Shown in pieces: positions 17,025-36,837 of a stretch of 36,837 bases of DNA (position 1 is the first letter of the stretch; every line of letters starts with the position of its first letter). Source of the DNA: Beijerinckiaceae bacterium (GTDB lineage Bacteria; Pseudomonadota; Alphaproteobacteria; Rhizobiales; Beijerinckiaceae). The stretch lies in NCBI GenBank assembly GCA_947453205.1, contig CANGFT010000043.1:1-36837 (forward strand). The letters are read 5' to 3'. The notes under the pieces are model-generated. The model saw only the letters and a list, made by a program, of their open reading frames with translations. It made no database searches and had not been told where the DNA came from. A program made the translations under genes and the position numbers.

Positions 17025-17070
17025 TCGCCACAGACGACCTGAAGGCCGCGGCGGAAAAGGGGAGGGAGTG

Positions 17071-18090
17071 ATGAGGGTCTGTTTGATCTTTGCTTGCATC
17101 GCGTGGTCCTGCGTGACGGGGGCGATCACAACCCGTGCTGATCCGGTCGCGGATTTTTACAAGGGTCGTTCCGTCACTGTGCTCAGCGCAGGTGGAGCCG
17201 GCGGCGCACATGGGCTTTACGCGCAGATCATCGCGACCCATATCAGACGGCACATTCCGGGGAACCCGAATGTCGTGGTCCAGTTCATGCCTGGCGCTGG
17301 CGGCAACACCGCCATGAACTATCTGCAGGCCGTCGCGCCCAAGGATGGGACGGTGATCGGCCTTCCCCTGCAGGACCTCGTCTTCAACGCGCGCATAGGC
17401 GTGCAGGAGGTCAAATACGATCCTGCGCAGATCCATTATCTCGGTGGCGCGGATACGACGCGCACGGTTCTCTCGATCATGCGCGCAGCGAATGTCGCCA
17501 CGCTCGAGGATGCGACGAAGCGGGAGATTCTCGTCGGCACCAATGGCAAGTCCGGCCAGTCCTATCTCGTGCCCATGGTCCTGAACGGCCTCCTCAAGAC
17601 GAAGTTCAAGCCCATCATCGGCTACAAGGACATCAGCGACATCCATTTCGCCATGGAGCGCGGCGAAGTGCAGGCGACGGCGGCCTCATGGCCGACCATC
17701 TCCAACACAAAACCCGATTGGATTCGAAACGATCTCGTCGCCAACCTCGTCACCATCGGCCTTGATCGCGACCCGGATCTGCCGCAGGCGCCGGCTTTGA
17801 CGGAGCTTGCGACGGGCGCCGATGATGCGGCCCTCGTGGAGCTGCTCTGTGCATCGGCTCAACACGGCCGCGCCTGGGTCGCCATCGGCGACATTCCAAA
17901 AGATCGCCTGGCGGCATTGCGGTCAGCCTTCGCTGCGACCATGGCTGATCCTGAATTCCGTGCCGAAGCTGCGCGACGCAACATGGCCATCAATCCCGTC
18001 TCCTGGGAGGATCAGGATCAAGCCAGGCGCAAGATACTCGCGACGCCCGACAGCGCCGTGCAACGCATCAAGCGCATCCTCGATCTGTGA
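17071..18090 (+). CDS. TctC/Bug-like periplasmic receptor, second copy (divergent subfamily)
   Basis: A 339-residue protein with a signal peptide (MRVCLIFACIAWSCVTGAIT, cleavage near RAD). The mature start DPVADFYKGRSVTVLS is followed by HIRRHIPGNPNVVVQFMPGAGGNTAMNYL and APKDGTVIGLP. This is a distinct TctC-like branch, clearly different from the preceding receptor, so the pair is not a recent duplication. I prefer the ATG at 17071, spaced from GGAGGGAG, over the GTG at 17068. It could bind a second related substrate, or deliver to a different permease encoded elsewhere. Confidence 0.8.
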   Translation: MRVCLIFACIAWSCVTGAITTRADPVADFYKGRSVTVLSAGGAGGAHGLYAQIIATHIRRHIPGNPNVVVQFMPGAGGNTAMNYLQAVAPKDGTVIGLPLQDLVFNARIGVQEVKYDPAQIHYLGGADTTRTVLSIMRAANVATLEDATKREILVGTNGKSGQSYLVPMVLNGLLKTKFKPIIGYKDISDIHFAMERGEVQATAASWPTISNTKPDWIRNDLVANLVTIGLDRDPDLPQAPALTELATGADDAALVELLCASAQHGRAWVAIGDIPKDRLAALRSAFAATMADPEFRAEAARRNMAINPVSWEDQDQARRKILATPDSAVQRIKRILDL

Positions 18091-18111
18091 GGACATCTCA
18101 AGAGGTTCAAG

Positions 18112-19326: not shown

Positions 19327-19636
19327 GCGTCAAAGCTATGAAGGTTGTTCCTCCGAGGCTTGGCTGAGCAACTGGGGTTGCGAAGCTCCAACTCTCAATG
19401 CAATCTGGATCATCTCATGTGGTCTTGCCGCCAGCACCCCTGAAGTGGCCGAGAAACACGATGGCGATGCTTTGCGCGTCGCTGAGCCCTCGAGGGGTGA
19501 TCCACCTTCCGACGTGATTGGCCGGGCGGGATCTTCAGGCGGGCGCTTGAAGCGGCAGGCTTGAAGATCATTCGGCGCCATCCTCGAAAGCAGGCGTCTT
19601 CACCGGCTTCCTCGCCGCTCGATTCGCTTCCCATCG
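19327..19636. other. 310-base gap with no recognisable gene
   Basis: The stretch lies between the second Rieske gene and the stop of the converging MobR-like gene. Short open frames exist on both strands, but none has a ribosome site or a recognisable protein pattern. No clear terminator with a T-run was seen. It could be a decayed remnant, but I cannot assign it. Confidence 0.4.
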
Positions 19637-20116
19637 CTACTTGGGTTTGGCGGAGGGTGCGCCTGCCCGCAAAGGGGCGCGGCTGCGGACATTTCCTGCT
19701 CTGGTGATCTTGGCGAGCAGCGCGACGAAGGTTTCACGTTCTTTCGGAGACAGATATTCGACGATGTCGTCCTGCACGCGGGCCACCCATGGACGCGCTA
19801 AATCGAGAGCTTTGGCGCCCTCGGCGCTCAGCATGAGAACCCGCGCCCGGCGATCCGTCGGACTGACCTCGCGCGTTATGAAGTTCTTTTGCGCCAGCCG
19901 ATCAACGACGCCGCCAATGGTGACGCGATCATAGGCGATCAACCCCGCTAGCGTCTGTTGATCGAGGCCTGGATGATCCCTGAGGGTCGCCAGCGCCGCG
20001 AACTGGACGGAAGTGAGATCCAGTCCCGCCTCAGCCATGCGTGCGGAAAAGAGCGAAACCGAGATTTGCTGCACACGGCGGATCAGGTGGCCGGGCAAAG
20101 TGTCGAGCTCGCTCAT
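19637..20116 (-). CDS. MarR-family regulator, MobR-like
   Basis: A 159-residue MarR repressor. A dimer helix (LPGHLIRRVQQISVSLFSARM) is followed by LTSVQFAALATLRDHPGLDQQTLAGLI, the recognition helix YDRVTIGGVVDRLAQKNFITRE and the wing PTDRRARVLMLSAEG. The ATG at 20116 has AGGGGG upstream; a TTG seven codons earlier is less likely. It begins 36 bases after the end of the mobA-like hydroxylase on the same strand, so both probably share one transcript. In Comamonas testosteroni, mobA is repressed by the MarR protein MobR and induced by 3-hydroxybenzoate. The same relation is inferred here. Confidence 0.82.
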   Translation of the reverse strand: MSELDTLPGHLIRRVQQISVSLFSARMAEAGLDLTSVQFAALATLRDHPGLDQQTLAGLIAYDRVTIGGVVDRLAQKNFITREVSPTDRRARVLMLSAEGAKALDLARPWVARVQDDIVEYLSPKERETFVALLAKITRAGNVRSRAPLRAGAPSAKPK

Positions 20117-20152
20117 GCTGGCCCCCTGGCTGGACAATGCTGGCCGCCGCCG

Positions 20153-22051
20153 TCAGGCGCCAGCCGTCAAGATCCCCGCGAAATAGTGGCTCAGCTGCGC
20201 ATGGGCGTCGAGCGGCAGAACCTGCGCGATATATTGATCGGGACGAACGACCACCATGCAACCTTGCTCCCGATTGACGCCGCGCATCTCATAGATGTCG
20301 CCCGCCTTCGGGTCGATGCAGAAGGCCTTCTCATAATCGCGCAGGCCGAGCCGGCCCTTTGTCGGCCATAGCAGCGTTGGCAACGCATCCATCGACAGGG
20401 ATTGATGCGGTTGCTGGAAGATCGCGCGAATGTCGAAGAGCGCGTCAACGTCCATATTTGCGGGCGTGTGGCGGCGCACTGGCGAGGCCGGCGCATGGCT
20501 TAGAAAGGCGCAAAGCCCGGCAAGACGCGAGCCCGGCGCCAGCCCATCCGCCCCGGCGAAGAGATAGAGGCGCCAGCGGGCATCCGCCTCAGCCACATGG
20601 CCAAGATGCATGGGCTTGGCGTCCGCAAGCCGGATGACCGGCGCCGAGTGGAAGCGCATGCCGACGATGAAGCCCTGCGCCAGATGCTGATGCGTATCAG
20701 GTCCGGTGAGCAGCGAAGGCGCATAGCGCGTCGCCGTGCCTGCGGTGAAGCGGCCCTGTTTGATGAAATAACGCTGGAATTCGGCGGGGTCGACGCCGTC
20801 ATCATCCGCCGCTGTCTTCGGCTTGGCGCTGAACATCCTCGCGAACTCGCGGTCGAAGTCGATCAGCTCCTTGGCGATCGATTGCCTTTCGCCCGAGTAG
20901 CTGTGCAGCAATGCGGGCGTCGCCCAGCCCTGCAGCACGGCGGCGAGCTTCCATCCGAGATTGAAAGCGTCCTGCATGGAGACGTTCATGCCCTGACCCG
21001 CCTTTGGGCTATGAGTGTGGCAGGCGTCCCCTGCGATGAACACCCTCGGCGCGCGCGTCGCTTCCTGCCCTGCAAGCACATCATCGAATTTATCGCAGAG
21101 CCGCTGCCCGATCTCATAGACCGACCACCACGCCACCTGCTTCACATCCAGCACATAGGGTTGGAGGATGCGCTGGGCGGCGGCGATCAACTTTTCCTGC
21201 GTGATGTTCTTCGCGACGATCCGCTCGTCCTCGCCGAGCTTGTCGAGTTCGATATAGAGCCGCACGAGATAGCCGCCCTCACGCGGAATGATCAGGATAT
21301 TGCCTTCGTTGGCCGAATGGATCGCGCATTTCAGGCGGATGTCGGGAAAATCGCTATATGCCAACACATCCATCACGCCCCAGGCCTGATTGGCGGATTC
21401 CCCCTGCAATTCGCGCCCCATTGACTTGCGCACGCCGCTTCGGGCGCCATCGCAGCCCACCACATAGCGCGCCCGAACGACTTCGATCCCGTCTTCGCCT
21501 GAAGCGTCCACCGGCTGCAGGCGAACCGTCACGGGCTCCGCAGGATCCTCGGGGATGGTGAGATCGAGCAGGCGCAGGCCATAATCAGGGTTGAGCGGGT
21601 TGGACGCATGGCGCATCCGCTCCAGATAGAAGTCATGCACGCGCGCCTGGTTCAGGATCACATGGGGGAATTCCGAAAGCCCTTCCTCCGTGTCGGGAAT
21701 GCGGCCGTGGCGAACGATCTGCCGCGTCTCGCTGTCGCCCGGTTTCCAGAAGGTGGTCTCATTGACCCAATAGGCCTCCTTCATCACTTTCTCGACGAAG
21801 CCGAAGGCGTTGAACATCTCCATGGTGCGGCAGGCGATCCCATCGGCCTGGCCCAATTCCAGCGGTCCCTTCTTCTGTTCCACGATGCGGGTGCGGATCG
21901 ACGGAAAGCTCGCGAGTTGCGCGGCCAGCGTCAGCCCGGCAGGGCCGCACCCCACGATCAGCACGTCAATCACATCTGACTGAGTGACGGTCGGAACGGG
22001 TTCCAGAATTGTCGGGTCTCCCGTGCGAAAACCGTTGAGGTGAAATTGCAT
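20153..22051 (-). CDS. mobA: 3-Hydroxybenzoate 4-monooxygenase (MobA-like FAD monooxygenase)
   Basis: A 632-residue class A flavoprotein hydroxylase starting MQFHLNGFRTGDP, very close to the start I remember for Comamonas MobA. It has the FAD-binding IVGCGPAGLTLAAQLA, GQADGIACRTMEMF, the DG motif VVGCDGARSGVRKSMG and FIAGDACHTHSPKAGQGMN, followed by the thioredoxin-like C-terminal domain ending RPDQYIAQVLPL. The frame stays open to 22213, but the ATG at 22051 has AGGAA upstream and gives the family-typical length. The expected reaction is 3-hydroxybenzoate plus NADPH and O2 to protocatechuate. A phenol 2-monooxygenase-type activity is less likely given the N-terminus. No protocatechuate-cleaving gene is present in the window. 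Confidence 0.86.
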   Translation of the reverse strand: MQFHLNGFRTGDPTILEPVPTVTQSDVIDVLIVGCGPAGLTLAAQLASFPSIRTRIVEQKKGPLELGQADGIACRTMEMFNAFGFVEKVMKEAYWVNETTFWKPGDSETRQIVRHGRIPDTEEGLSEFPHVILNQARVHDFYLERMRHASNPLNPDYGLRLLDLTIPEDPAEPVTVRLQPVDASGEDGIEVVRARYVVGCDGARSGVRKSMGRELQGESANQAWGVMDVLAYSDFPDIRLKCAIHSANEGNILIIPREGGYLVRLYIELDKLGEDERIVAKNITQEKLIAAAQRILQPYVLDVKQVAWWSVYEIGQRLCDKFDDVLAGQEATRAPRVFIAGDACHTHSPKAGQGMNVSMQDAFNLGWKLAAVLQGWATPALLHSYSGERQSIAKELIDFDREFARMFSAKPKTAADDDGVDPAEFQRYFIKQGRFTAGTATRYAPSLLTGPDTHQHLAQGFIVGMRFHSAPVIRLADAKPMHLGHVAEADARWRLYLFAGADGLAPGSRLAGLCAFLSHAPASPVRRHTPANMDVDALFDIRAIFQQPHQSLSMDALPTLLWPTKGRLGLRDYEKAFCIDPKAGDIYEMRGVNREQGCMVVVRPDQYIAQVLPLDAHAQLSHYFAGILTAGA

Positions 22052-22090
22052 GTGTCGATTCCTGCCAGAGAGTGACCGCTGTTTATATGT

Positions 22091-22117
22091 AGTATACGTC
22101 CTATCTTGATCCGTCAA
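22091..22117 (-). promoter_or_regulatory. Candidate promoter of mobA-mobR
   Basis: Read on the minus strand, TTGACG (22112-22117) and TATACT (22091-22096) are 15 bp apart. TACTAC at a 17-bp spacing is an alternative -10. The region is AT-rich compared with its surroundings and lies 40-66 bases before the ATG. No perfect MarR palindrome was found, only the 6-bp GTATAC. Confidence 0.35.
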
Positions 22118-22175
22118 CCCGCAGGAGACAGCTCGAAGAGCGGCTTTGCTTTTATCGGTGGGTGTGTCCGGCCGC

Positions 22176-22784
22176 CTACTCGTTCGCGCCAGCCCGTGGC
22201 AGATGCCAGTCATAGCTCATGGCGACGAGGCGAAGGCTGGTGGCTAAAATGGCGCCCAGAGGGGCTATGACGGCGTCTGGAACGCCAACCATGTCTCCGA
22301 GCGTCAGCAGCGCCGCTCCTCCCAGCGCCGCCAGGGCGTAGATTTCCCTTTGCAAGACCATGGGCGGACGAGCGGTCAGCACATCCGCCGCGATTCCGCC
22401 GCCCACGGCGGTGAGCATTCCCAACAGGGATGCCATCAGCGGAGACAATCCGGCGTCCAGCGCCTTGCGGGCGCCCACGACACAGAAGAGGCCCAGACCA
22501 ATCGCATCGAAGACGGCGACAGGCCGCGCCAATCTGATGATGCGTCCGGAGGCGAAGAAGCAAAGGGCGCCCGCAACGACGGCGATGCCGACATAGAGGC
22601 TGCTCTGCAGCGCTGCGGGTGGAACGGCGCCGATGAGGACATCGCGGACGATGCCGCCTGAAACCGCGGCCACAAAGGACAGGAACACAACGCCGAACGG
22701 GTCCATCCGATTCTCAACCGCGCGCATGCCCCCGCTCAGGGCGAAAGCGAAGGTCCCGATGATGTCCAGTGTGGTGAGCAGCAT
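22176..22784 (-). CDS. TRIC-type (UPF0126/YicG) cation channel-like membrane protein
   Basis: A 202-residue protein with about seven hydrophobic segments and an internal repeat. SGGIVRDVLIG in the first half corresponds to GGGIAADVLTA in the second, the hallmark of bacterial trimeric intracellular cation channel relatives (formerly UPF0126). In the second copy the usual charged position is replaced (RD becomes AD). It begins 3 bases after the stop of the MarR gene upstream, so it is co-transcribed and probably translationally coupled with it, as it lacks a good ribosome site of its own. A link to aromatic catabolism is not known; it may serve ion balance. Confidence 0.8.
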   Translation of the reverse strand: MLLTTLDIIGTFAFALSGGMRAVENRMDPFGVVFLSFVAAVSGGIVRDVLIGAVPPAALQSSLYVGIAVVAGALCFFASGRIIRLARPVAVFDAIGLGLFCVVGARKALDAGLSPLMASLLGMLTAVGGGIAADVLTARPPMVLQREIYALAALGGAALLTLGDMVGVPDAVIAPLGAILATSLRLVAMSYDWHLPRAGANE

Positions 22785-25963: not shown

Positions 25964-26872
25964 TCATTTGCCAAAGGCGACGCCGTCTTTTCTATACATA
26001 TCCTTGATGATCTTCAGCATGCGCTCCACCTCGGGGGAGCGGTCGCCCTTGCGCGTGCTCATCATCACTGGCGAGACGGCCTCAGGCGCGCTGAGCGCCC
26101 TGTAGACCACATTATCGCGACGCAGCCGCTCCACGGACCCGGGCACGAGGGCGACGCCGCTATTGGCCGCCACGAGGCCAAGCGCCGTCTGCAGCTCCCG
26201 CACCTCAAGCACGGCGCGCGGCGTGATGTTTCTGTCGCGAAAGATCGACAGAACCTGATCGGCGTAGCTCGGGCGTGGAGCGCGCGGATAAACGATCAGC
26301 GTGTCCTGCGCCAACTCCTCAAGCGCAAGCGAATCCCGTCGCGCGGCCAGTGGATGTTCGAGAGGAAGCGCAGCGCATATGCTCTCGTTGCGCAAGAGGA
26401 CGCGATCTACAGCTGGATCTTGCAGCGTCAGTCTTCCAAATCCGACATCGATGCGCCCCTCCTTCAGGGCGACGAGCTGCTCAACGGTCGTCATTTCATG
26501 AAGCAGGATTTCAGTGCCGGGCCTCGCCGCGCGGTAGCGTCGGATCACCTCCGGCAAATAACCATATAGGGTGGATGCGACGAAGCCGATGGAATAGCGC
26601 GGCTTGTCGGCCTCTATCAGCCGCTTCACGGCGGCCTTCATCTCGTCCATGCGCTCAAGAACCTGCACAGACTGATCGAACAGAAGTTTCCCCGCTTCAG
26701 TGAGCGCCAGCGGACGGCTGTTGCGGTCAAAGAGTTCGGCGCCGAATTCATCCTCCAAAGCCTGGATCTGGCGGCTCAGGGGCGGCTGGGCGATGTGCAG
26801 TTTTTCGGCGGCGCGCGTGAAATTCTTCTCCCGCGCCACGGCCACGAAATAACGGAGTTGTCGCGATTCCAC
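25964..26872 (-). CDS. LysR-type regulator, BenM/CatM/CatR-like
   Basis: A 302-residue LysR regulator. The N-terminal helix-turn-helix is [50 protein letters not shown], and the effector domain includes [22 protein letters not shown], as in CatR/BenM relatives. It starts with GTG at 26872, preceded on its own strand by GGGAGG (26879-26884). It diverges from benA, and an ATAC-N7-GTAT site lies immediately upstream. It should activate ben-cat in response to cis,cis-muconate and/or benzoate, as BenM and CatM do in Acinetobacter. It is the only LysR gene in the window, so it may serve both the ben and cat parts. Confidence 0.87.
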
Positions 26873-26875
26873 GCC

Positions 26876-26890
26876 ATACCTCCCGAGTAT
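26876..26890. promoter_or_regulatory. BenM/CatM-type LysR binding site
   Basis: ATAC (26876-26879), 7 bases, then GTAT (26887-26890) is exactly the ATAC-N7-GTAT consensus for BenM/CatM. A degenerate second site, ATTC-N7-GATT, starts at 26902 toward benA. The perfect site covers the ribosome site of the LysR gene and starts 4 bases from its GTG, which suits autoregulation. Confidence 0.65.
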
Positions 26891-26969
26891 CGAGCAGACC
26901 TATTCAGTCTTGGATTTATCGCCCTCAGAGGAGCATGAAAGTCTCATGACAGTCAATCTGGAGGGGGAA

Positions 26970-28310
26970 ATGTTCGATACTCTTGATCATAAGCTTGGCG
27001 CCGCGCTTGAGGATGACGCCGCCCGCGGGCTCTACCGCGTCGACCGCGACATCTTCACAGACCCCGCGCTCTTCGAACTCGAGATGCGCCATATCTTCGA
27101 AGGCAACTGGGTCTATCTCGCGCACGAGAGCCAGGTTCCCAACCCCAACGATTACTTCACGACCCATATCGGCCGTCAGCCGATCGTCATTGCGCGCAAC
27201 CGGGCAGGGGAGCTCAACGCTTTCGTCAACGCCTGCAGCCATCGCGGCGCCATGCTGTGCCGTCACAAGCGTGGCAACAAAAGCACCTACACCTGCCCTT
27301 TTCATGGGTGGACGTTCAACAACAACGGCAAGCTGCTGAAGGTGAAGGATCCCGAAGGCGCGGGCTATCCCGAAAGCTTCAACAAGAACAGTTCGCATGA
27401 TCTGACGAAGGTCGCGCGCTTCGAGAGCTATCGCGGCTTTCTCTTCGGCAGCCTCAACCCTGAGGTGAAGCCACTCGTCGAACATCTGGGCGAGGCCGCC
27501 AAGATGATCGACCTGATCGTCGACCAGTCGCCCGAAGGTCTTGAGGTTCTGCGCGGCTCCTCGACCTATGTTTATGACGGCAACTGGAAGCTCCAGACCG
27601 AGAACGGCGCGGACGGCTACCATGTCACGGCGGTGCACTGGAACTATGCCGCCACCACGGGCCGTCGCAAGGAGGCCGCGAAGGTCGATAATGTGCGCGC
27701 CATGAGCGCAGGCGGCTGGGCCAAGCAGGGCGGCGGCTTCTACTCTTTCGAGCACGGCCATCTGCTGCTCTGGACCAACTGGGCGAACCCCGAGGATCGC
27801 CCCAACTGGGAGCGGCGCGAGGAGCTTGCTCGCGAGTTCGGCCAGGCGCGTGCGGACTGGATGGTGCAGCGCAGCCGCAATCTCTGCGTCTACCCCAACG
27901 TCTATCTGATGGACCAGTTCTCCTCGCAGATCCGGACCTATCGCCCCATCTCCGTCGATAAGACGGAGGTGACGATCTACTGCATCGCGCCCAAGGGGGA
28001 AGCGCCCGAAGCACGCGCGCGCCGCATTCGCCAGTACGAGGATTTCTTCAACGCCTCGGGCATGGCGACGCCGGACGACCTTGAGGAATTCCGCTCCTGC
28101 CAGATGGCCATGATGGGCCGGGCGGCGCGCTGGAACGACATGTGCCGCGGCGCCGACCACTGGATCGAGGGCGCCGACGAAGCCGCCCAATCCATCGGGC
28201 TCAAACCCCTGATGAGCGGCAAGCGCACAGAGGACGAAGGCCTCTTCGTTCTGCAGCACAAATACTGGCAGGAAGCGATGACCCGCGCTGTCGCCGAAGA
28301 CAAGGCTTGA
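26970..28310 (+). CDS. benA: Benzoate 1,2-dioxygenase, large (alpha) subunit
   Basis: A 446-residue terminal oxygenase subunit. Rieske ligands are C89, H91, C109 and H112 (CSHRG and CPFHGW). The catalytic iron region is [13 protein letters not shown] with D215, H218 and H223. Long blocks such as [22 protein letters not shown] and [20 protein letters not shown] are the same as in Acinetobacter BenA as I remember it. The frame runs back to a TTG at 26910, but GGAGG at 26960-26964 is well placed for the ATG at 26970, giving [10 protein letters not shown]. With BenB and BenC it converts benzoate, O2 and NADH to the cis-diol carboxylate. Confidence 0.95.
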
Positions 28311-28321
28311 GGGAGGTGGAG

Positions 28322-28843
28322 ATGCTGGTTCTCGATAAAACTTCCAACACGATGCGATTCAGCCAGGCGGAAGCCGAGCAATTTCTGTATCGCGAGGCCC
28401 GCGCCCTTGATGACAAGGACTGGGACGCATGGCTCGACCTTCACGCTGAGGATTGCGAGTTCTGGATGCCGTCATGGGATGACGACGATAAGCTCGTCGA
28501 AGATCCCCAGTCGGAAATTTCATTGATCTGGTACGGCCATAAGGGCGGACTGGAAGACCGGATCTTCCGCATCAGGACCGAGCGCTCCAGCGCGACGAGC
28601 CTTCCCGAGCCACGCACGTCTCACAACATCACCAACACCGAGATTCTCTCCACAAAGGGATCGCTGGTGGAGCTGCGCTGCAACTGGGTGACGTTGAGCT
28701 TCCGCTACAAGACCGTCGACACCTATTTCGGAACGTCCTTCTACACGATCGACCTTGCAAGCGGCGCGCCGCTCATCAAGCGCAAGAAGGTGATCCTGAA
28801 GAACGACTACATCCACCATGTCGTCGACATCTATCACCTCTGA
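28322..28843 (+). CDS. benB: Benzoate 1,2-dioxygenase, small (beta) subunit
   Basis: A 173-residue beta subunit of a ring-hydroxylating dioxygenase, with the family pattern QFLYREARALDDKDWDAWLDLHAEDCEFWMP at residues about 20-50 and the end IKRKKVILKNDYIHHVVDIYHL. It supports the alpha3-beta3 structure and has no cofactor. GGGAGGTGGAG lies directly before the ATG. It sits 11 bases after benA and 14 bases before benC, so the three are one transcript. Confidence 0.95.
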   Translation: MLVLDKTSNTMRFSQAEAEQFLYREARALDDKDWDAWLDLHAEDCEFWMPSWDDDDKLVEDPQSEISLIWYGHKGGLEDRIFRIRTERSSATSLPEPRTSHNITNTEILSTKGSLVELRCNWVTLSFRYKTVDTYFGTSFYTIDLASGAPLIKRKKVILKNDYIHHVVDIYHL

Positions 28844-28857
28844 GCGGAGCGAAGATC

Positions 28858-29883
28858 ATGACGCATCGCATTGCGCTCAATTTTGAAGATGGGGTGACCC
28901 GCTTCGTCGAGGCGCGGGCAGGGGAGACCATCGCTGACGCTTCCTATCGCGTCGGCGTCAACATTCCCCTCGATTGCCGCGACGGCGCTTGCGGGGCCTG
29001 CAAGTGCAGGGTCGAAGCCGGCGCTTATGAGAGCGGCGCCTATATCGAGGACGCATTGTCCGATGAAGAAGCGCAGGCGGGATTCGCGCTCGCCTGCCAG
29101 GCGACGCCGAAGAGCGACATGGCCATATCAATCCTCGCGTCTTCCGCCGCCTGCAAGACGAAGCAGCAGGAATGGGAGACGACGCTCGTCAAGGTGGAGC
29201 GGCTTTCCGAATCCAGCCTCGCCTTCACCCTTGAAAAGCCTGCAGGGCTGTCGTTCCTGCCCGGACAATATGTGAATGTCGGGGTTCCCGGCACGGACCA
29301 GAGCCGGGCTTATAGCTTCTCTTCGGCGCCCGCTGACGATCACCTGAGCTTCCTTGTCCGCGACGTCCCTGGCGGGCTCATGAGCGGTTGGCTGAGCGAG
29401 CGGGCGAAGGCCGGCGCGGCGATGCGTATGTCCGGTCCCTGCGGCGCCTTTTATCTGCGCGATCTTTCGCGCCCCGCGCTGTTCCTTGCAGGCGGGACGG
29501 GCCTCGCGCCCTTCCTGTCCATGCTCGGCGAGATGAAAGCGAAGGGGGATAGTTCAGCGGTGCGCCTGATCTACGGCGTCACCCATGATGAAGACCTCGT
29601 CAGCGTCGACACGCTTGAAGGTTTGGCGGCTGAGATTCCGAACTTCACCTACACGACCTGCGTGGCCTCGCCGGCCAGCAGCCATGCAGGCAAGGGCTAT
29701 GTCACCGACCACATCCTGCCTGACGACCTCAATGGCGGCGATGTCGACATCTATCTTTGCGGCCCGCCCGCCATGGTTGAGGCGGTGCGCTCCTGGCTCG
29801 GCCAGAAAGGCGTGACGCCAGCCTCGTTCCACTACGAGAAGTTCACCCCGGGCGCGGCGACCCCAGCTTCGAAGGCGGCGTGA
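28858..29883 (+). CDS. benC: Benzoate 1,2-dioxygenase electron-transfer component
   Basis: A 341-residue NADH reductase. An N-terminal plant-type ferredoxin domain binds [2Fe-2S] through C40, C45, C48 (CRDGACGACKC) and C80 (ACQA). Then comes a ferredoxin-NADP-reductase-like part with the FAD motif RAYSFSS and the NAD motif GGTGLAPFLSML, ending with CGPPAMVEAVRSWL. It passes electrons from NADH to the BenA Rieske centre. It is the only oxygenase reductase in the window, so it is a possible but unproven partner for the two orphan Rieske oxygenases upstream. Confidence 0.94.
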   Translation: MTHRIALNFEDGVTRFVEARAGETIADASYRVGVNIPLDCRDGACGACKCRVEAGAYESGAYIEDALSDEEAQAGFALACQATPKSDMAISILASSAACKTKQQEWETTLVKVERLSESSLAFTLEKPAGLSFLPGQYVNVGVPGTDQSRAYSFSSAPADDHLSFLVRDVPGGLMSGWLSERAKAGAAMRMSGPCGAFYLRDLSRPALFLAGGTGLAPFLSMLGEMKAKGDSSAVRLIYGVTHDEDLVSVDTLEGLAAEIPNFTYTTCVASPASSHAGKGYVTDHILPDDLNGGDVDIYLCGPPAMVEAVRSWLGQKGVTPASFHYEKFTPGAATPASKAA

Positions 29884-29884
29884 C

Positions 29885-30664
29885 ATGACAATTTTCGCAC
29901 ATCGCTTCAGCGGCAAGGTCGCCGTCGTCACCGGCGCCGCACAAGGCATAGGCCGCAGGGTCGCCGAGCGCATGGCCGCAGAGGGGGCGCAGGTTTTTGC
30001 GGTCGACAGGTCCGACATCGTGAAGGGAGCCTGCGCGGAGATTGGCGCAAATGCGACGCCCGTGCTCGCTGATCTCGAAACCTATGCGGGGGCTGTCTCC
30101 GCCATCGAGGCAGTCAAAGCTGCGGCCGGACGCATCGACATTCTCATCAATAATGTCGGCGGCGCCATCTGGATGCGCCCTTTCGCAGCCTTCGATGATC
30201 GGCAGATCGAGGCTGAGATCCGGCGCTCGCTGATGCCGACGCTCTGGTCTTGTCACGCCGTGCTTCCCGCCATGCTGGCGCATGGGGGCGGCGTGATCGT
30301 CAATGTTTCGTCGGTGGCGACGCGCGGCCTCAACCGTGTGCCCTATGCGGCGGCCAAGGGCGGCGTCAACGCCATCACCACCTGCCTCGCCATGGAATAC
30401 GCCAGCAAGGGCATCCGTGTCTGCGGCGTGGCGCCCGGCGGCACCGACGCTCCGCCCCGGCTCATTCCCCGCTTCGACGGCGAGCGCAGCGCGCAGGATG
30501 AAATCTGGTCGCAGGAAGTCGTCGATCAAACCATCGCGACGAGCTTCATGCGCCGATACGGCAGCGCCGACGAACAGGCCGCCGCCATTCTGTTCCTGGC
30601 CTCTGACGAGGCCTCCTACATCACCGGACTCACCCTACCTGTGGCGGGTGGGGACGCCGGCTGA
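29885..30664 (+). CDS. benD: Benzoate cis-diol (1,6-dihydroxycyclohexa-2,4-diene-1-carboxylate) dehydrogenase
   Basis: A 259-residue short-chain dehydrogenase. It has the NAD site VTGAAQGIGRRVA (15-27), INNVGGAIWMRPF, the serine in VSSVATRG and YAAAKGG (Y154, K158). INNVGGAIWMRPF and the end YITGLTLPVAGGDAG are typical of BenD/XylL. It oxidises and decarboxylates the diol made by BenABC to catechol. Only one base separates the benC stop and this ATG, so translation is coupled. Confidence 0.93.
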   Translation: MTIFAHRFSGKVAVVTGAAQGIGRRVAERMAAEGAQVFAVDRSDIVKGACAEIGANATPVLADLETYAGAVSAIEAVKAAAGRIDILINNVGGAIWMRPFAAFDDRQIEAEIRRSLMPTLWSCHAVLPAMLAHGGGVIVNVSSVATRGLNRVPYAAAKGGVNAITTCLAMEYASKGIRVCGVAPGGTDAPPRLIPRFDGERSAQDEIWSQEVVDQTIATSFMRRYGSADEQAAAILFLASDEASYITGLTLPVAGGDAG

Positions 30665-30667
30665 CCC

Positions 30668-30685
30668 AACGGTCGCCGGACCGTT
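30668..30685. terminator. Small hairpin between benD and catA
   Basis: AACGGTC (30668-30674) pairs perfectly with GACCGTT (30679-30685) around GCCG, followed by TCC. It lies 3 bases after the benD stop. It may stabilise or process the message between the ben and cat parts rather than end it. Confidence 0.45.
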
Positions 30686-30717
30686 TCCGGCATTCCTGCT
30701 CAATTGGAGGCAACGCC

Positions 30718-31647
30718 ATGACTGACAGCTTGATGAACACCAGAGAAGTCCGCAGCCTGCTCGACAAGGTCGGCGGCTTTGACAACCGCAATGGCGACGA
30801 GCGCCTGAAGCGCATCGTCCAGCGCATCGTCGCCGACACATTCCGCATCATCGAGGATTTCGACATTTCGCCCGACGAGTTCTGGTCCGCCATGAGCTAT
30901 GTCACGCGCCTCGGCCAGGCGAACGAAGTCGGCCTGCTGGTTCCCGGTCTTGGCATCGAGACCTTCCTTGACATGCGGCTCGATCAGGCTGAGCGAAAGG
31001 CCGGCCTTGAGGGCGGCACGCCGCGCACGATCGAGGGGCCGCTCTATGTTGCGGGCGCGCCGCTCTCCAAGGGCGAAGCCCGCCTTGATGACGGCACCGA
31101 GCAGGGCGAAGTGCTCTTCATGGAAGGCCAGGTCCGCGACGTCGACGGCAAGCCGGTCGCTGGCGCCATCGTGGATGTCTGGCACGCCAACACGCTCGGC
31201 GGCTATTCGTTCTTCGATCCCTCGCAGCCCAAGTATAACATGCGCTGCCGCATCGAGACCGACGCGCAGGGCCGCTATCGCTTCCGTTCGCTGCTTCCCG
31301 CCGGCTACGCCTGCCCGCCTGAAGGCGTGACCCAGCAGCTGCTCGACGCCCTCGGCCGCCACGGCCATCGCCCCGCGCATATCCACTTCTTCGTGGCTGC
31401 GCCCGGCTACCGCAAGCTGACCACCCAGATCAACATCGATGGCGATGAATATCTCCATGACGACTTCGCCTTCGCCACACGCGACGAACTGATCCCCGAG
31501 GTGCGTCGGATTGAAGACGCGGCCAAGGTTCACGCCAAGGGGCTGAACGCTCCCTATGCTGAAATCACCTTCGATTTCGTGCTGCATGCCGAGAGCGCCG
31601 CTGCGCCCGTCACCATCGTGAACCGCGAACACGCCGAAGCGGCCTGA
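30718..31647 (+). CDS. catA: Catechol 1,2-dioxygenase
   Basis: A 309-residue intradiol dioxygenase. The N-terminal helical dimer/lipid-binding domain is followed by the beta-sandwich. The four non-haem Fe(III) ligands are visible at Y163 (GGYSFF), Y197 (PAGYACP), H221 and H223 (PAHIHFF), each within 1-3 positions of those in Acinetobacter CatA. TGGAGGCAAC precedes the ATG. It opens the catechol ring to cis,cis-muconate. The length and GYACPP pattern fit CatA rather than a chlorocatechol dioxygenase (about 250-260 residues). Confidence 0.94.
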   Translation: MTDSLMNTREVRSLLDKVGGFDNRNGDERLKRIVQRIVADTFRIIEDFDISPDEFWSAMSYVTRLGQANEVGLLVPGLGIETFLDMRLDQAERKAGLEGGTPRTIEGPLYVAGAPLSKGEARLDDGTEQGEVLFMEGQVRDVDGKPVAGAIVDVWHANTLGGYSFFDPSQPKYNMRCRIETDAQGRYRFRSLLPAGYACPPEGVTQQLLDALGRHGHRPAHIHFFVAAPGYRKLTTQINIDGDEYLHDDFAFATRDELIPEVRRIEDAAKVHAKGLNAPYAEITFDFVLHAESAAAPVTIVNREHAEAA

Positions 31648-31652
31648 TCGTC

Positions 31653-31690
31653 TGCGGCGCCGGAGCCGACCGGCGCCGCATCCTTTTCCA
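31653..31690 (+). terminator. Strong hairpin after catA
   Basis: TGCGGCGCCGG (31653-31663) pairs perfectly over 11 bp with CCGGCGCCGCA (31670-31680) around a 6-base loop, followed by TCCTTTTCC. This looks like a rho-independent terminator or attenuator lying inside the cat gene run, 6 bases after the catA stop. Confidence 0.65.
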
Positions 31691-31759
31691 AACATTCTCG
31701 ATGTCCCTGGCGTGCGTCCTCCTGGACGCGCGAATGGGAGAACGCGGGCGAAAATCATC

Positions 31760-32917
31760 ATGCTTGACCAGATCGCCAGAATTCCCGCCGACATGAAGCA
31801 CGAGCTCGCGGTCCGCACAGTGACGACGACGATCGTCGATGTGCCCACAGTCCGGCAGCACAAGCTGTCGCAGACTTCGGTCAGCGCGCAGAGCTATGTG
31901 ATAGTCGAAATACTGCTCGAAAATGGCGTGATTGGCGCCGGCGAAGCTGCGACCCTTGGCGGTCCGCGCTGGAGCGAGGAAAGCGTCGAGAGCATCAAGG
32001 CCAACATTGATTCCTACCTTGCCCCCGCGCTCGTCGGCCTCGACGCATCGCAGTTCGAAAGCGCGGCATCGCGAATGGACGCCGCCGCCAAGCGCAACAA
32101 CGCCGCCAAGGCCGCGATCCAGAGCGCCCTGATCGACGCGGTCGGCAAGACCCTCGACCTTCCCGCTCATGCCTTTTTGGGCGGCCTTGTGCGCGAACGT
32201 TTTCCCGTCCTCTGGACCCTCGCATCCGGCGATCCCGCCCAGGAGGTCGAGGAAGCTGAGGCGAAGCTGGCTGCGCGCCTGCACCGCACCTTCAAGGTGA
32301 AGATCGGCGCGCAGGCGCCTGACGCTGACATGCTGCGCCTTGGCGTTCTGGCGAAGGCGCTTGGGGATCGCGCCGAGCTCATCGTCGACGCCAACCAGGC
32401 ATGGGATGAGACGACAGCGCTTCGTTGCATGCGCGAGATGGCGGACCTTGGCGTCGTGCTCGTCGAGCAGCCATTGCCTGCATGGAACATTGATGGCATG
32501 TCGCGGCTGCGCCATCGTTGTGAAACACCATTGCTCGCCGATGAAAGCGTCTTCACCACCCATGACATGATGACAGTAGCGAGAGCGGGCGCAGCTGATG
32601 CCGTCTCGCTCAAGCTCGTCAAACATGGCGGCCTGAGGGAGCTGCACAAGGTCGCGGCGGTCGCGGAAGCCGCGGGTGTGGCGCTTTATGGCGGCTGCCT
32701 GCTGGAGAGTTCCATCGGCGCTGCGGCGCATCTGCAGGCGTTCGCGGGCCTGCGGGGCCTCTCCTGGGGTTGCGAGCATTTCGGGCCGCAGATCCTCAAG
32801 CAGGATCTTGTCGTCACGCCCCTCCACTTCGAAAACTTCCATGTGCACCTGCCGAAGGGGCCTGGTCTTGGAATCGAAATTGATCCCCAACAACTCGCGC
32901 GCTTCGCACGCAAATAG
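31760..32917 (+). CDS. catB: Muconate cycloisomerase
   Basis: A 385-residue enolase-superfamily enzyme. The KxK catalytic pair is in FKVKIGAQ. The metal ligands are in VDANQAW, LVEQPLP and LADES, and the second-face lysine is in AVSLKLVKHGGL. The C-terminal GGCLLESSIGAAAHLQAFA is typical of CatB. It converts cis,cis-muconate to (+)-muconolactone. The ribosome site for the ATG at 31760 is weak, with GGGAGAAC 15 bases upstream. ATG at 31793 is another possible start, as residues before VRTVTTTIVDVPTVR are not conserved. The CatA terminator hairpin lies between it and catA. Confidence 0.92.
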   Translation: MLDQIARIPADMKHELAVRTVTTTIVDVPTVRQHKLSQTSVSAQSYVIVEILLENGVIGAGEAATLGGPRWSEESVESIKANIDSYLAPALVGLDASQFESAASRMDAAAKRNNAAKAAIQSALIDAVGKTLDLPAHAFLGGLVRERFPVLWTLASGDPAQEVEEAEAKLAARLHRTFKVKIGAQAPDADMLRLGVLAKALGDRAELIVDANQAWDETTALRCMREMADLGVVLVEQPLPAWNIDGMSRLRHRCETPLLADESVFTTHDMMTVARAGAADAVSLKLVKHGGLRELHKVAAVAEAAGVALYGGCLLESSIGAAAHLQAFAGLRGLSWGCEHFGPQILKQDLVVTPLHFENFHVHLPKGPGLGIEIDPQQLARFARK

Positions 32918-32926
32918 GAGTGGGCC

Positions 32927-33205
32927 ATGCTTTATTGCGTCCGAATGGATGTCCAGATCCCTCACGATTATCCGGCCGAGCGCATCGAGATGCTGAAGGC
33001 CGAAGAAAAGGCGAGGGCGATCGAATTGCAGCGCGCTGGGGTGTGGAGACACCTTTGGCGCATCGCCGGCGCCTACGCCAACATCAGCATCTTCGATGTG
33101 GCCAGCCACGATGAGCTTCACACTCTTCTTTCAACGCTGCCGCTCTTTCCCTTCATGGCCATCGTCGTGACGCCGCTCGCGCGTCACCCCTCCGCCATCG
33201 ATTGA
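32927..33205 (+). CDS. catC: Muconolactone delta-isomerase
   Basis: A 92-residue protein of the small decameric muconolactone isomerase family (usually about 92-97 residues). Typical features are MLYCVRMDVQIP at the start, AEEKARAIELQRAGVWRHLWRIAG and the end SLxxLPLFPFM-like segment LSTLPLFPFMAIVVTPLARHPS. It moves the double bond of muconolactone to give 3-oxoadipate enol-lactone. It starts 9 bases after catB with TAGGAG as ribosome site. Confidence 0.94.
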   Translation: MLYCVRMDVQIPHDYPAERIEMLKAEEKARAIELQRAGVWRHLWRIAGAYANISIFDVASHDELHTLLSTLPLFPFMAIVVTPLARHPSAID

Positions 33206-33277
33206 TGTGTCGCGAACCGCTCCCCGGCGGCGGATCGCACTCGAAAGGAACGCCGGAAGTTCGAGGAGGGTTTCATC

Positions 33278-34621
33278 ATGCATCAATCCACGCCCACAGA
33301 CGTCCAGGACGTCATCAACGCGCATCCATTGTCGAGCATGCAACGCTGGGTCATTGCGCTTTGCTTTCTCGTCGTCGCCATAGATGGCTTCGATACCGCG
33401 GCGATCGGCTTCATCGCACCGGCCTTGCGCGCTCAATGGGGCGTGACGCCCGCGCAACTCGCGCCATTGTTCGGCGCGGGGCTCTTCGGGCTCATGGTCG
33501 GCGCCTTCATCTTCGGCCCCTTGGCGGATAAATTCGGCCGCAGGCCGGTGCTGGTCGCGACGACCCTCTTCTTTGGCCTCGCCACCCTGGCGTCCGCGCT
33601 CGCCACATCGGTTGAGTCGCTCGTGCTCCTGCGCTTCGTCACGGGCCTTGGTCTTGGTGGGGCCATGCCGGCGGCCATCACCCTGACGTCAGAGTTCTGC
33701 CCCGAGCAGCGCCGCTCCTCGCTCGTCACGATCATGTTCTGCGGTTTCACAATCGGATCGGCTTCTGCGGGCCTCGCAGCCTCCCATGTGGTGTCCGCCT
33801 ATGGCTGGCAGGGCCTGCTCGTGCTCGGCGGGCTTCTGCCGGTGGCGCTCACCATCGTGCTGCTCGCCATGCTGCCAGAATCCGTCCGCTATCTCGTGCT
33901 CAAACAATCAAAACCCGAAAAGGTCCGCGCCCTGCTGCAGCAAATAACGGGGAAGGAGCTTCCGGAGGACGCCACGTTCACCGGAACGGTCAAGCCGTCG
34001 GGCTCGCCAGCGCTGGACCTCTTCCGCAATGGCCTCGCGGGCGGCACCCTGCTGATCTGGACGACCTTCTTCATGAGCCTGCTGGTCTTCTACCTTCTGT
34101 CGAGCTGGCTGCCCCTGCTCATCACGACTGCGGGCTTCTCCATGGCCAACGCCTCCTTGATGGCGGCGACGCTGGCCGCCGGCGGCACTGTCGGCGCCGT
34201 GGTCATCGGCCGCTTCATGGATCGGCATGACCCCCACCGCGTGCTTGCCCTCGCCTATCTCCTGGCGGGTGGATTCGTGATCGCCTTGGGGGCGACTGTA
34301 AGCGCTCCCTGGCTGCTGGTCGCGTCGATTTTTGGCGCAGGCTTTGGCGTGGCGGGCGCGCAGGTCGGCGTCAACGCGCTGGCGGCCGCTTATTACCTGA
34401 CCGCGATCCGCGCCACGGGCGTCAGTTGGGCGAACGCCGTCGGCCGCACCGGGTCGGTGCTTGGCTCTATGGTCGGCGGCTTTCTTCTGTCGCTTGGCTG
34501 GGATCTCACGACCGTCTTTTCGGTCGCCGCTGGCCCGCTGTTCATCGCCGCCGTCGCCATGCTGGTCAAAGCCTCGCTCGGCGCCCGCAAGCAAGCCCTG
34601 CAGCCTGTGGCTGCGGAGTGA
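33278..34621 (+). CDS. MFS transporter, aromatic acid:H+ symporter (AAHS) family, BenK/MucK/PcaK-like
   Basis: A 447-residue, 12-helix transporter. DGFDTAAIGFIAPAL in helix 1 is the AAHS signature, and GPLADKFGRRPVL is the loop between helices 2 and 3. RFVTGLGLGGAMPAAITLTSEFCP and PESVRYLVL follow, as in PcaK and BenK. GAGGAGGG lies before the ATG. Position after catC and before pcaD suggests import of benzoate, muconate or 4-hydroxybenzoate with protons. The exact substrate cannot be read from sequence. Confidence 0.88.
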   Translation: MHQSTPTDVQDVINAHPLSSMQRWVIALCFLVVAIDGFDTAAIGFIAPALRAQWGVTPAQLAPLFGAGLFGLMVGAFIFGPLADKFGRRPVLVATTLFFGLATLASALATSVESLVLLRFVTGLGLGGAMPAAITLTSEFCPEQRRSSLVTIMFCGFTIGSASAGLAASHVVSAYGWQGLLVLGGLLPVALTIVLLAMLPESVRYLVLKQSKPEKVRALLQQITGKELPEDATFTGTVKPSGSPALDLFRNGLAGGTLLIWTTFFMSLLVFYLLSSWLPLLITTAGFSMANASLMAATLAAGGTVGAVVIGRFMDRHDPHRVLALAYLLAGGFVIALGATVSAPWLLVASIFGAGFGVAGAQVGVNALAAAYYLTAIRATGVSWANAVGRTGSVLGSMVGGFLLSLGWDLTTVFSVAAGPLFIAAVAMLVKASLGARKQALQPVAAE

Positions 34622-34630
34622 CGTTCCCCG

Positions 34631-34651
34631 GGGCCCGGTGGATCCGGGCCC
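34631..34651. terminator. GC-rich hairpin after the AAHS transporter gene
   Basis: GGGCCCGG (34631-34638) pairs perfectly with CCGGGCCC (34644-34651) around 5 bases, followed by TATCCTTTA. It lies 9 bases after the transporter stop and about 20 bases before the BKACE gene, so it may limit or process the transcript at this point. Confidence 0.5.
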
Positions 34652-34672
34652 TATCCTTTACGGAGACAGGTC

Positions 34673-35539
34673 ATGCCCAATCCCTGCATCATCTCGGTGG
34701 CGATCACAGGTTCGGTGCCACGCAAGAAAGACAATCCGGCTGTTCCCATCACCACGGCGGAACAGATCGAGAGCACACATGAAGCCTATGAAGCCGGGGC
34801 CTCTCTTGTTCATGTTCATGTGCGCAACCCCGATGAGAGCTCCAGCAGCGATCCTGCGCTCTTCGCCGCCTTTCAGGAGGGCGTCCGCAAGCATTGTCCG
34901 GACCTGATCGTGCAGTTCTCCACCGGCGGGAGGGGGCGTGAGATGAACGCCCGGGGCTCCATGTTGCATCTCAAGCCGGATATGGCGTCTCTGGCGACCG
35001 GCAGCGTGAATTTCCCGACCATCATCTATGAGAATGCGCCGGATTTCATCCGCTCCCTCGCCCAGAAGATGAAGGACAATGGCGTGATCCCGGAGATCGA
35101 GGTGTTCGATCTCGCCATGCTCTACAGCGCCGCAAAGCTCTCGGCTGAGGGGCTCATTCCTGCAAAGCCGCACATCCAGTTTGTATTCGGCATCAAGAAC
35201 GCGCTTCCGGCTGACCGCGACGTGCTCGAATTCCAACTGAAGAAGCTGCGCAGCCTTATCCCGGGCGCGACCTGGACCGCCGCAGGCATCGGCCGGGATC
35301 AGTTGACAGCGGCCCGCTGGTCGCTGGAGCTTGGCGGCCACTGCCGCACCGGCCTTGAAGACAACATCCGGTTGGATCGTGATCGTCTTGCTCCTTCCAA
35401 CGCGTCGCTCGTCCGCCAGGTCGTGGATCTCGCCGCCACCTTCAATCGTCCCATTGCGACGCCGACGCAGGCCCGGCAAATCCTTGGATTGCAGCGCACG
35501 GGCAGCGCAGCCAGGCTGCTCGCCGAAGCTGTTGGTTGA
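34673..35539 (+). CDS. Beta-keto acid cleavage enzyme (BKACE, DUF849), candidate 3-oxoadipate-cleaving
   Basis: A 288-residue TIM-barrel zinc enzyme of the BKACE family. The zinc ligands H47 and H49 (VHVHVRN) and E229 (RTGLEDN) align within one position with those of Kce from lysine fermentation, and the catalytic arginine (R225) is present. The family converts a beta-keto acid plus acetyl-CoA to acetoacetate and a new CoA ester. At position 14, where Kce has a glutamate for its amino substrate, this protein has serine, closely followed by R17-K18-K19, which would suit an acidic substrate. Lying before pcaD, its likely substrate is 3-oxoadipate, giving succinyl-CoA and acetoacetate. The substrate is inference. 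Confidence 0.85.
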   Translation: MPNPCIISVAITGSVPRKKDNPAVPITTAEQIESTHEAYEAGASLVHVHVRNPDESSSSDPALFAAFQEGVRKHCPDLIVQFSTGGRGREMNARGSMLHLKPDMASLATGSVNFPTIIYENAPDFIRSLAQKMKDNGVIPEIEVFDLAMLYSAAKLSAEGLIPAKPHIQFVFGIKNALPADRDVLEFQLKKLRSLIPGATWTAAGIGRDQLTAARWSLELGGHCRTGLEDNIRLDRDRLAPSNASLVRQVVDLAATFNRPIATPTQARQILGLQRTGSAARLLAEAVG

Positions 35540-35542
35540 CCC

Positions 35543-36352
35543 ATGAGCTACATTGACACCCCCGGTGCGCGCCTCCTCGTCAGGGATTGCGGTCCCGCAC
35601 ACGCGCCGCCAATCGTCCTTTCGAACTCGCTCGGCACGACCCATCACATGTGGGATGAGGTCAGCTCGATCCTGTCCGAACATTTTCGGGTGATCCGCTA
35701 TGACACACGCGGCCATGGCGGATCGGTTTGGGATGGCTCTCCCTTTGAAATCGCCGACCTCGCCGCCGATGTGATCGCGATTTTAGATGAGCTGCGGATC
35801 ACTAAGGCGCATTTCGCGGGCCTTTCCCTTGGCGGGATGACCGGCCAGGTGCTCGGCGCTGATCACCCTGCGCGGATTGCTACCCTCTCGCTGTTGGCCA
35901 CCAGCGCCTATATGCCCCCGCCATCTGGCTGGACGGATCGTGCTGTTCTGGTGCGCCGCGAGGGCACGAAGGCCATTTTGCCAGCAACACTTGAGCGCTG
36001 GTTCACGCAGGGCTGCCTCAAACGACAGACGCCACAGGTGCGTCTGATTGGCGAGGAGTTCATTGACATTGATCGCGAAGGCTATGGCGCCTGTTGCGAG
36101 GCCATTTCTCGAATGGACTTGCGCGAGCTTGGGGCGAAAATAAGCGTCCCCACGCTCATCATCGCAGGGGCCAATGACGTGGCGACACCCATTGAAATGG
36201 CCCGAGATCTCCACCAAGGAATCGCGGATTCGCGGCTGGTGGTTCTGGAGCCTGCCGCCCATCTGTTGGCTGTCGAACAGCCCTTGATGGTCGCCGAACA
36301 TCTGTCCCGGCATGTGCTGGGGCTCAGCGCAGTGGGAGCGACACGCCAATGA
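35543..36352 (+). CDS. pcaD: 3-Oxoadipate enol-lactonase
   Basis: A 269-residue alpha/beta hydrolase. The nucleophile elbow GLSLGG has S95, the acid is the D in AGANDVATP near 217, and the histidine is in [12 protein letters not shown] near 239. DTRGHGGS in the N-terminal part is typical of PcaD/CatD. It hydrolyses the enol-lactone made by CatC to 3-oxoadipate. It starts 3 bases after the BKACE stop, and its own stop overlaps the next ATG (ATGA), so BKACE, lactonase and CoA transferase are tightly coupled in translation. Confidence 0.92.
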
Positions 36353-36837
36353 GGAAAATCTATCCCGACGCCACGCGCGCACTGGCAGGCCTGATCCAGG
36401 ATGGCATGACCATCATGTCCGGCGGCTTTGGCCTGTGCGGCATTCCCGAGACCCTGATCCTGGCGATCCGCGAGTCCGGCGCCAGAGATCTCACGGTCAT
36501 CTCCAACAATGCGGGCGTCGATGGCGTGGGCCTCGGCATCCTCCTGGAGACGCGCCAGATCAAGAAGATGATCTCGTCCTATGTGGGCGAGAACAAGCTC
36601 TTCGCCCAGCAGTTCCTCGCGGGCGAGCTGGAGCTGGAGTTCAACCCGCAGGGCACGCTGGCTGAGCGCATCCGCGCGGGCGGCGCGGGCATCCCCGCCT
36701 TCTTCACCAAGACGGGCTATGGCACCATCATCGCCGAGGGCAAGGAGACCCGCACCTTCGATGGCGAGCATTATGTGATGGAGCGCGGCCTCGTCGCCGA
36801 CATCGCCCTCGTCCACGCCTGGAAGGCCGACCATGAA
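36349..36837 (+). CDS. scoA: 3-Oxoacid CoA-transferase subunit A, ScoA-like, truncated by the window end
   Basis: The first 163 residues of a CoA-transferase A subunit (full length about 230-240). It has [59 protein letters not shown] and [10 protein letters not shown]. The SSYVGENK and ELEFNPQG wording is what I know from succinyl-CoA:acetoacetate transferases (ScoA). PcaI proteins usually differ there, for example with FPRQSDSYVF and IELEVVPQG. The catalytic glutamate is on subunit B, outside the window. Its ATG overlaps the pcaD stop. It may activate acetoacetate from the BKACE reaction, or serve as the 3-oxoadipate transferase itself; families overlap, so PcaI remains possible. Confidence 0.75.

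Follow-up and report, generated by a model that had tools for sequence, protein, structure and literature searches.

A benzoate cluster with a BKACE and a CoA-transferase gene at its end

The window analyzed here is one entire contig (CANGFT010000043.1, referred to as C43; 36837 bases) of a 4.2 Mb Beijerinckiaceae draft genome in 109 contigs. Positions 25964-36837 carry a benzoate gene cluster in the order BenM/CatM-like regulator, benABCD, catA, catB, catC, PcaK-like transporter, BKACE, pcaD, and the first part of a gene for a CoA-transferase subunit A. Our subject is the ending of the beta-ketoadipate pathway that the BKACE and the transferase would provide. The BKACE gene (34673-35539, + strand) encodes a protein of 288 amino acids (aa), a predicted 3-oxoadipate:acetyl-CoA acetyltransferase that also matches PF05853 (315.2 bits, cut-off 24.8). 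After a gap of +3 nucleotides (nt) comes pcaD, for 3-oxoadipate enol-lactonase (35543-36352, +; TIGR02427, 258.2 bits, cut-off 255.85), which overlaps by 4 nt (ATGA) the gene for a scoA-type 3-oxoacid CoA-transferase subunit A (36349-36837, +). Only the first 163 aa of this subunit are present before the contig stops within its reading frame; they match positions 3-164 of the 222 in profile TIGR02429 (182.9 bits, cut-off 128.5). All three genes lie on one strand, and with spacings of +3 and -4 nt their translational coupling is plausible, in line with the preliminary description of this DNA, which had them translationally clustered.

The genes before them are assigned mostly from family models. 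A LysR-type regulator gene divergent from benA (25964-26872, - strand) is BenM/CatM-like by its position and by its best NCBIfam match, BenM, at 275.9 bits under a cut-off of 600. On the + strand follow benA, for the large subunit of benzoate 1,2-dioxygenase (26910-28310; TIGR03229, 865 bits, cut-off 780.95; listed with a TTG start, the true start may be internal); benB, for the small subunit (28322-28843; PF00866, 154.6 bits, cut-off 27; ATG at the junction); benC, for the electron transfer component (28858-29883; NF040810, 510 bits, cut-off 430); and benD, for benzoate diol dehydrogenase (29885-30664; NF040811, 405.9 bits, cut-off 380). The same strand carries catA, for catechol 1,2-dioxygenase (30718-31647; TIGR02439, 449.9 bits, cut-off 392); catB, for muconate cycloisomerase, with an uncertain start (31712-32917; TIGR02534, 431.1 bits, cut-off 334.95); and catC, for muconolactone delta-isomerase (32927-33205; PF02426, 136.1 bits, cut-off 26.7). 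The transporter gene (33278-34621, +) encodes an aromatic acid:H+ symporter-like MFS protein that is PcaK-like by its best matches, which lie under the cut-offs of both PcaK NF053517 (422.5 bits, cut-off 770) and TIGR00895 (382 bits, cut-off 418.55).

The BKACE belongs to the 3-oxoadipate family

The BKACE passes NCBIfam NF053568 (3-oxoadipate:acetyl-CoA acetyltransferase) at 466.2 bits against a cut-off of 350, which supports the earlier proposal of a 3-oxoadipate enzyme as a prediction from sequence; the three other BKACEs of the genome reach merely 163-196 bits on this model. The Kce model (lysine fermentation, NF052387) is not passed by the window BKACE (267 bits, cut-off 382). The zinc and arginine residues that had been read as intact are indeed present (H47, H49, E229, and R225), together with S83 and D230. 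All six align with zinc/catalytic positions of Kce (2Y7D), in which we take the HxH motif and E to be zinc ligands and S, R, and D to be catalytic. In the same alignment, the Glu14 position of Kce is occupied by Val15, and the window BKACE lacks the glutamate that binds lysine-type substrates. Glu14 of Kce is described as contacting the 5-amino group of the substrate (PMC10470551).

Two further residues are kept among relatives. Arg87, right after the STGG motif, is invariant in 136/136 aligned rows of relatives (of which L028 and L167 represent a single contig), and 134 of these rows also have Lys18; both residues are missing from the three BKACE paralogs of the genome, and Kce has Ala at the Arg87 position. 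Arg87 may serve, in our reading, to hold the far carboxylate. As it is alike in rows with and without aromatic neighbors, it marks the family and not the context. The best solved-structure match of the window BKACE is 3NO5, an unnamed protein (residues 2-273, 272 residues), and its nearest named relative comes from a Beijerinckiaceae metagenome-assembled genome (L028, 94% identity over 214 residues), the contig of which also ends in the BKACE. Among the other BKACEs of the genome, one on contig C4 (L021 8305-9303) exceeds the cut-off of 430 for the 3,5-dioxohexanoate:acetyl-CoA model, an activity of phloroglucinol breakdown, at 543.8 bits, and two on C8 and C9 pass no listed NCBIfam cut-off.

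The transferase subunit groups with ScoA

TIGR02429 is a single NCBIfam subfamily spanning PcaI and ScoA. The 163 residues of the window A subunit are 67.5% identical to the Bacillus subtilis ScoA chain 3CDK (over 154 residues), 65-69% identical to A subunits encoded next to acetyl-CoA acetyltransferase, bktB, or BKACE in Rhizobiaceae, Sphingobium, Paracoccus, and Phaeobacter (66-68% for those adjoining acetyl-CoA acetyltransferase), 72% identical to the subunit at locus L148, and 82% identical to a Microvirga copy of unassigned context. A Streptomyces A subunit beside fumarylacetoacetase, an enzyme that releases acetoacetate, shares 60.5%. Identity to four pcaF-linked PcaI sequences is just 48-51%, compared with 60-82% for the ScoA-side rows of other organisms.

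In a tree of 50 rows, enlarged by 30 A subunits found among 142 genomes of the class and omitting AtoD_Ecoli and unk_Rhodobact_L173 as long branches, the window row and a second copy from the same genome fall in a ScoA clade of 28 rows (support, 100/97). A separate PcaI clade of 20 rows (99/96) is without the window row. This placement of the window row is observed directly, and it supports, at the level of sequence grouping, a transferase of the succinyl-CoA:acetoacetate type, as the preliminary description had proposed, apart from pcaF-linked PcaI. The two cases were not told apart by smaller trees, one of 22 rows and a second of 20 rows on 163 columns that left out unk_Rhodobact_L173 and unk_Paracoccus_L169.

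Genomic context and co-occurrence of BKACE relatives

The surroundings of BKACE loci were searched by tblastn for ben, cat, pca, and hydroxyquinol genes. Aromatic ring-cleavage neighbors were present at 12 of 80 loci in named genomes, at 11 of 23 in relatives (one of these is the L028 contig itself), and at 7 of 20 in the class; these counts are lower bounds because contig ends truncate many flanks and few queries were used. Weak intradiol-dioxygenase matches at L072 and L075 (36-37%) and a 31% catB match at L155 were not counted. Where the setting is aromatic, BKACE lies in protocatechuate operons (e.g., pcaC-H-G-BKACE-pcaB), in ben-cat clusters, or beside hydroxyquinol dioxygenase and maleylacetate reductase. 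The protocatechuate, catechol, and hydroxyquinol routes all converge on 3-oxoadipate, and the presence of BKACE in operons of all three is an addition of the present analysis. A Ruegeria pomeroyi plasmid carries pobA-pcaC-pcaH-pcaG-BKACE, and plasmids of Gemmobacter, Paracoccus yeei, and Phaeobacter have the BKACE within annotated pca operons.

A BKACE with A and B subunits directly after it occurs in Paracoccus, Phaeobacter, Sulfitobacter, and Marinibacterium. This arrangement is still a minority: the two subunits adjoin BKACE at 1 of the 103 mapped genome loci (80 plus 23; L148), at none of the 20 class loci, and at 4 of 13 opened plasmid loci, some of which were picked because they have it. 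Both kinds of ending can share a replicon, as on Sulfitobacter D7 plasmid p5, which carries A-B-pcaF (L278 1-2396) and, separately, pcaC-H-G-BKACE-pcaD-pcaB (L278 10289-14704).

Across 387 genomes of the class (BKACE in 22, pcaH in 86; both scans taken as the same draw on matching size and listed handles), pcaH is commoner with BKACE, in 11/22 BKACE-bearing versus 75/365 other genomes (Fisher p 0.003); 7 of the 86 pcaH genomes fall under the pcaH model's own cut-off. Of 43 BKACE-bearing genomes, 3 have a score in the PcaI range (>340 bits), 24 only a lower one in the ScoA range, and 16 none at E 1e-40. In each of the three with a PcaI-range score, a BKACE is part of a different aromatic cluster: G460 carries pcaH both about 0.7 kb from PcaI and next to BKACE, G440 has two BKACEs, one with ben-cat genes and the other without aromatic neighbors, and G070 has its BKACE with hydroxyquinol genes.

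The proposed ending and its alternatives

Taken together, we consider it highly probable that the benzoate cluster ends via the BKACE, a ScoA-type transferase, and a thiolase from elsewhere. BenABCD, CatA, CatB, CatC, and PcaD would turn benzoate via catechol (ortho-cleavage, beta-ketoadipate route) into 3-oxoadipate, and the BKACE, replacing PcaIJ and PcaF, would convert 3-oxoadipate and acetyl-CoA into succinyl-CoA and acetoacetate through a zinc-dependent retro-Claisen exchange. The ScoA-type succinyl-CoA:3-oxoacid CoA-transferase, presumably completed by an adjoining scoB, would move CoA from succinyl-CoA onto acetoacetate, and an acetoacetyl-CoA thiolase encoded elsewhere would produce two acetyl-CoA. 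In favor of this last step, the genome has thiolases on C42 and C45 that score best with acetyl-CoA C-acetyltransferase models, though short of the cut-offs of those models. The net yield would equal that of the classical ending.

Several points weigh against this reading, which is drawn from sequence and in which the activity of the BKACE is a prediction. Only 30 of the 123 mapped BKACE loci show aromatic ring-cleavage neighbors, and most show none. On Sulfitobacter D7 p1 (L279 6101-7819), a BKACE relative lies directly after 3-hydroxyacyl-CoA dehydrogenase and away from aromatic genes, and proteins near NF053568 may therefore include enzymes for other substrates. PcaI was not significantly rarer with BKACE, occurring in 2/11 BKACE-bearing versus 23/75 BKACE-free pcaH genomes (p 0.50), where the proxy for PcaI (a score of >=296 bits) misses some, such as L198 and L200 at about 265 bits on the PcaI side of the tree. 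Forcing the rows of this genome to PcaI cost 29.7 log units in the 50-row tree with an approximately unbiased (AU) test p of 0.105, and we therefore do not call that grouping formally rejected; in the smaller set, it had an AU p of 0.393, and joining all ScoA-side rows as one clade had p 0.331. The A subunit itself is cut off, and the single scoB end in the assembly, at the start of contig C56, may belong to the other A-subunit copy, on contig C23. With one scoB end for two A subunits, one pair is therefore incomplete in the assembly. The first 200 bases of C56, used as a query, matched only C56 itself and did not fix the order C43-C56 versus C23-C56. Finally, a thiolase on contig C11 passes the pcaF model (660 bits, cut-off 597), making a classical last step possible.

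The C11 gene leaves room for a mixed or redundant ending, in which the BKACE works as proposed while a transferase (the adjacent one or another) and the PcaF-type thiolase finish part of the flux classically, with a broad-specificity ScoAB taking 3-oxoadipate. Besides the thiolase itself, the coverage of PcaI and ScoA by one subfamily favors it, as do pcaF-type thiolases over the cut-off in 27 of the 43 BKACE-bearing genomes. We regard it as improbable. The only two A subunits over the family cut-off in this genome are both ScoA-type, both at contig ends, and two other matches are distant and under the cut-off. C11 carries no A- or B-subunit match, though the contig stops about 760 bases past the thiolase. 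A CoA-transferase pair on C67 (L025 6478-8099) scores under the PcaI/ScoA cut-offs and is presumably of the larger CatI/glutaconate type.

A fully classical ending would require the A subunit to be functionally PcaI and the BKACE to act on a different beta-keto acid. It is common for pcaI to lie beside other pca genes, and the AU tests leave a PcaI grouping possible, but the branch support of the ScoA clade, the higher identity to ScoA-side rows, including B. subtilis ScoA, than to the four PcaI, and the family, residues, and aromatic contexts of the BKACE make this very unlikely. Neither a PcaI grouping of the transferase nor a pcaJ-pcaF pair after it was observed, in DNA that can be read only as far as 36837, where the contig ends. 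That the BKACE or the transferase stands beside pcaD by chance and without a role in benzoate breakdown, for example as a recent duplicate of a housekeeping scoA, would suit the near-copy on C23 but is hardly credible given the tight one-strand spacing, the recurrence of BKACE in aromatic operons across many lineages, and the BKACE-A-B order in Paracoccus, Phaeobacter, Sulfitobacter, and Marinibacterium.

A second A-subunit copy and other genes of the window

The near-identical copy occupies the last 489 bases of C23 (L016), with 97.5% identity over 163 aa and the last 129 nt identical. The C43 and C23 genes stop at the same base, each at a contig end, and their likeness ends near the start codon, which is what a recent duplication or conversion the size of one gene would leave; one of the two therefore probably arose recently. 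The assembly of C43 probably broke at this point because of the near-identical copy.

Elsewhere in the window, positions 13160-22213 hold more oxygenase genes, among them those for Rieske proteins (13160-14338 and 18112-19326), a thiamine-diphosphate enzyme (14275-15999), and a phenol-hydroxylase-like FAD monooxygenase (20153-22213, - strand), with MarR regulators nearby. At 1297-12158, genes for a branched-chain-type ABC transporter are followed by those for enoyl-CoA hydratase, an AMP-binding ligase, amidohydrolase, SDR, and acyl-CoA dehydrogenase; together they resemble a further pathway for an aromatic or acyl acid.

Repeated recruitment of ScoA and its implications

The four BKACE-linked A subunits in the tree (window, Paracoccus aminovorans, Phaeobacter, and L148) are not monophyletic (p 5e-73, with four context changes on the tree); part of this rejection stems from the C23 copy, which is sister to the window row and not BKACE-linked. 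The Paracoccus subunit is nearest to a Paracoccus denitrificans copy without a BKACE within 6 kb. The tree leaves out the BKACE-A-B operons of Sulfitobacter CB2047 and Marinibacterium. By this phylogeny, BKACE seems to have gained a local ScoA gene as its neighbor on more than one occasion, in keeping with acetoacetate as its product.

For Roseovarius nubinhibens, a 2025 paper reports puzzling data: the genes named pcaIJ lie apart from the pca cluster and growth on 4-hydroxybenzoate requires them, pcaF is dispensable, an acetyl-CoA acetyltransferase seems to compensate, and the authors propose crosstalk with beta-oxidation (PMC12442348). If this organism has a BKACE of this type, as the R. pomeroyi operon does, its "pcaIJ" may in fact encode ScoAB, which would account for the data; our literature search found no paper joining R. 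nubinhibens with BKACE. Tentatively, and with slightly more doubt than conviction, we suggest that BKACE, ScoAB, and an ordinary acetoacetyl-CoA thiolase form a second way to end aerobic aromatic catabolism that is widespread, assembled again and again from each lineage's own ketone-body transferase, and hidden since ScoAB is mistakable for PcaIJ, which would explain the dispensable pcaF and the needed "pcaIJ" of R. nubinhibens.

The beta-ketoadipate pathway belongs to textbook biochemistry and is one of the main targets in lignin conversion. If a second ending makes acetoacetate, genomes without pcaIJ or pcaF would have to be read differently and leakage of acetoacetate or acetone is predicted; BKACE would also offer engineering a single-enzyme step from 3-oxoadipate. 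The window is a clean catechol-branch case with the likely acetoacetate-activating gene attached.

Comparison with known systems

The classical PcaIJ-PcaF ending reaches the same net products and differs in that activation precedes cleavage and that PcaI forms a separate clade. The window BKACE is like the rest of the NF053568 family (BKACE, PF05853) in score, active-site residues, and the operon types of its relatives, with no difference visible in the sequence. The BKACE family, its tie to beta-ketoadipate, and its aromatic operon setting are already in print and in databases, and the preliminary description rated the ending as too novel. Papers citing the founding BKACE study (Bastard 2014) state that beta-ketoadipate was assigned to part of the family (PMC4922564, PMC8963497).

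The closest published parallels are in Methylobacterium, whose pca clusters are described in a 2022 paper as having kce (DUF849) with pcaI, pcaJ, and pcaF missing (PMC8963497). A 2025 paper states for Methylobacterium kce the proposed reaction to succinyl-CoA and acetoacetate and describes growth on protocatechuate of M. extorquens given pcaHGBL and kce on a plasmid without pcaIJ or pcaF (PMC12379598). These clusters resemble the window in having a BKACE in a beta-ketoadipate operon and the same proposed reaction; they serve the protocatechuate branch, with no ScoA-type gene mentioned in the passages on kce, whereas the window serves the catechol branch with a ScoA-type gene (PMC8963497, PMC12379598). 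In Ralstonia eutropha H16, a 2019 regulon paper presents a COG3246 gene with catBCD as a possible cleavage enzyme for 3-keto acids (e.g., beta-ketoadipate). This is likewise a BKACE tied to catechol genes under BenM/CatM, but the passages on it mention no ScoA-type gene (PMC6449761).

Marinibacterium anthonyi pLA6_004, annotated kce_5-scoA_2-scoB_2 in its GenBank record, Sulfitobacter CB2047, and Paracoccus aminovorans share with the window a BKACE followed by an A-subunit gene with ring-cleavage genes nearby. Unlike the window, they have scoB visible and other gene order and upper-pathway genes. The phloroglucinol pathway, described as using a triacetate acetoacetate-lyase with a CoA-transferase and a thiolase, is alike in BKACE-type cleavage, acetoacetate activation (discussed there as following the BKACE step), and thiolysis, and unlike in substrate, transferase type, and anaerobic setting (PMC10470551). 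Activation of acetoacetate after a BKACE step is also discussed for deoxyribose (PMC6365646). Our literature search, with most subscription papers outside its scope, found no paper naming ScoAB as the partner for 3-oxoadipate. Compared with these systems, the chemistry is already known and the window is a clear new example, not a new pathway; the repeated recruitment of ScoA is a useful evolutionary detail added.

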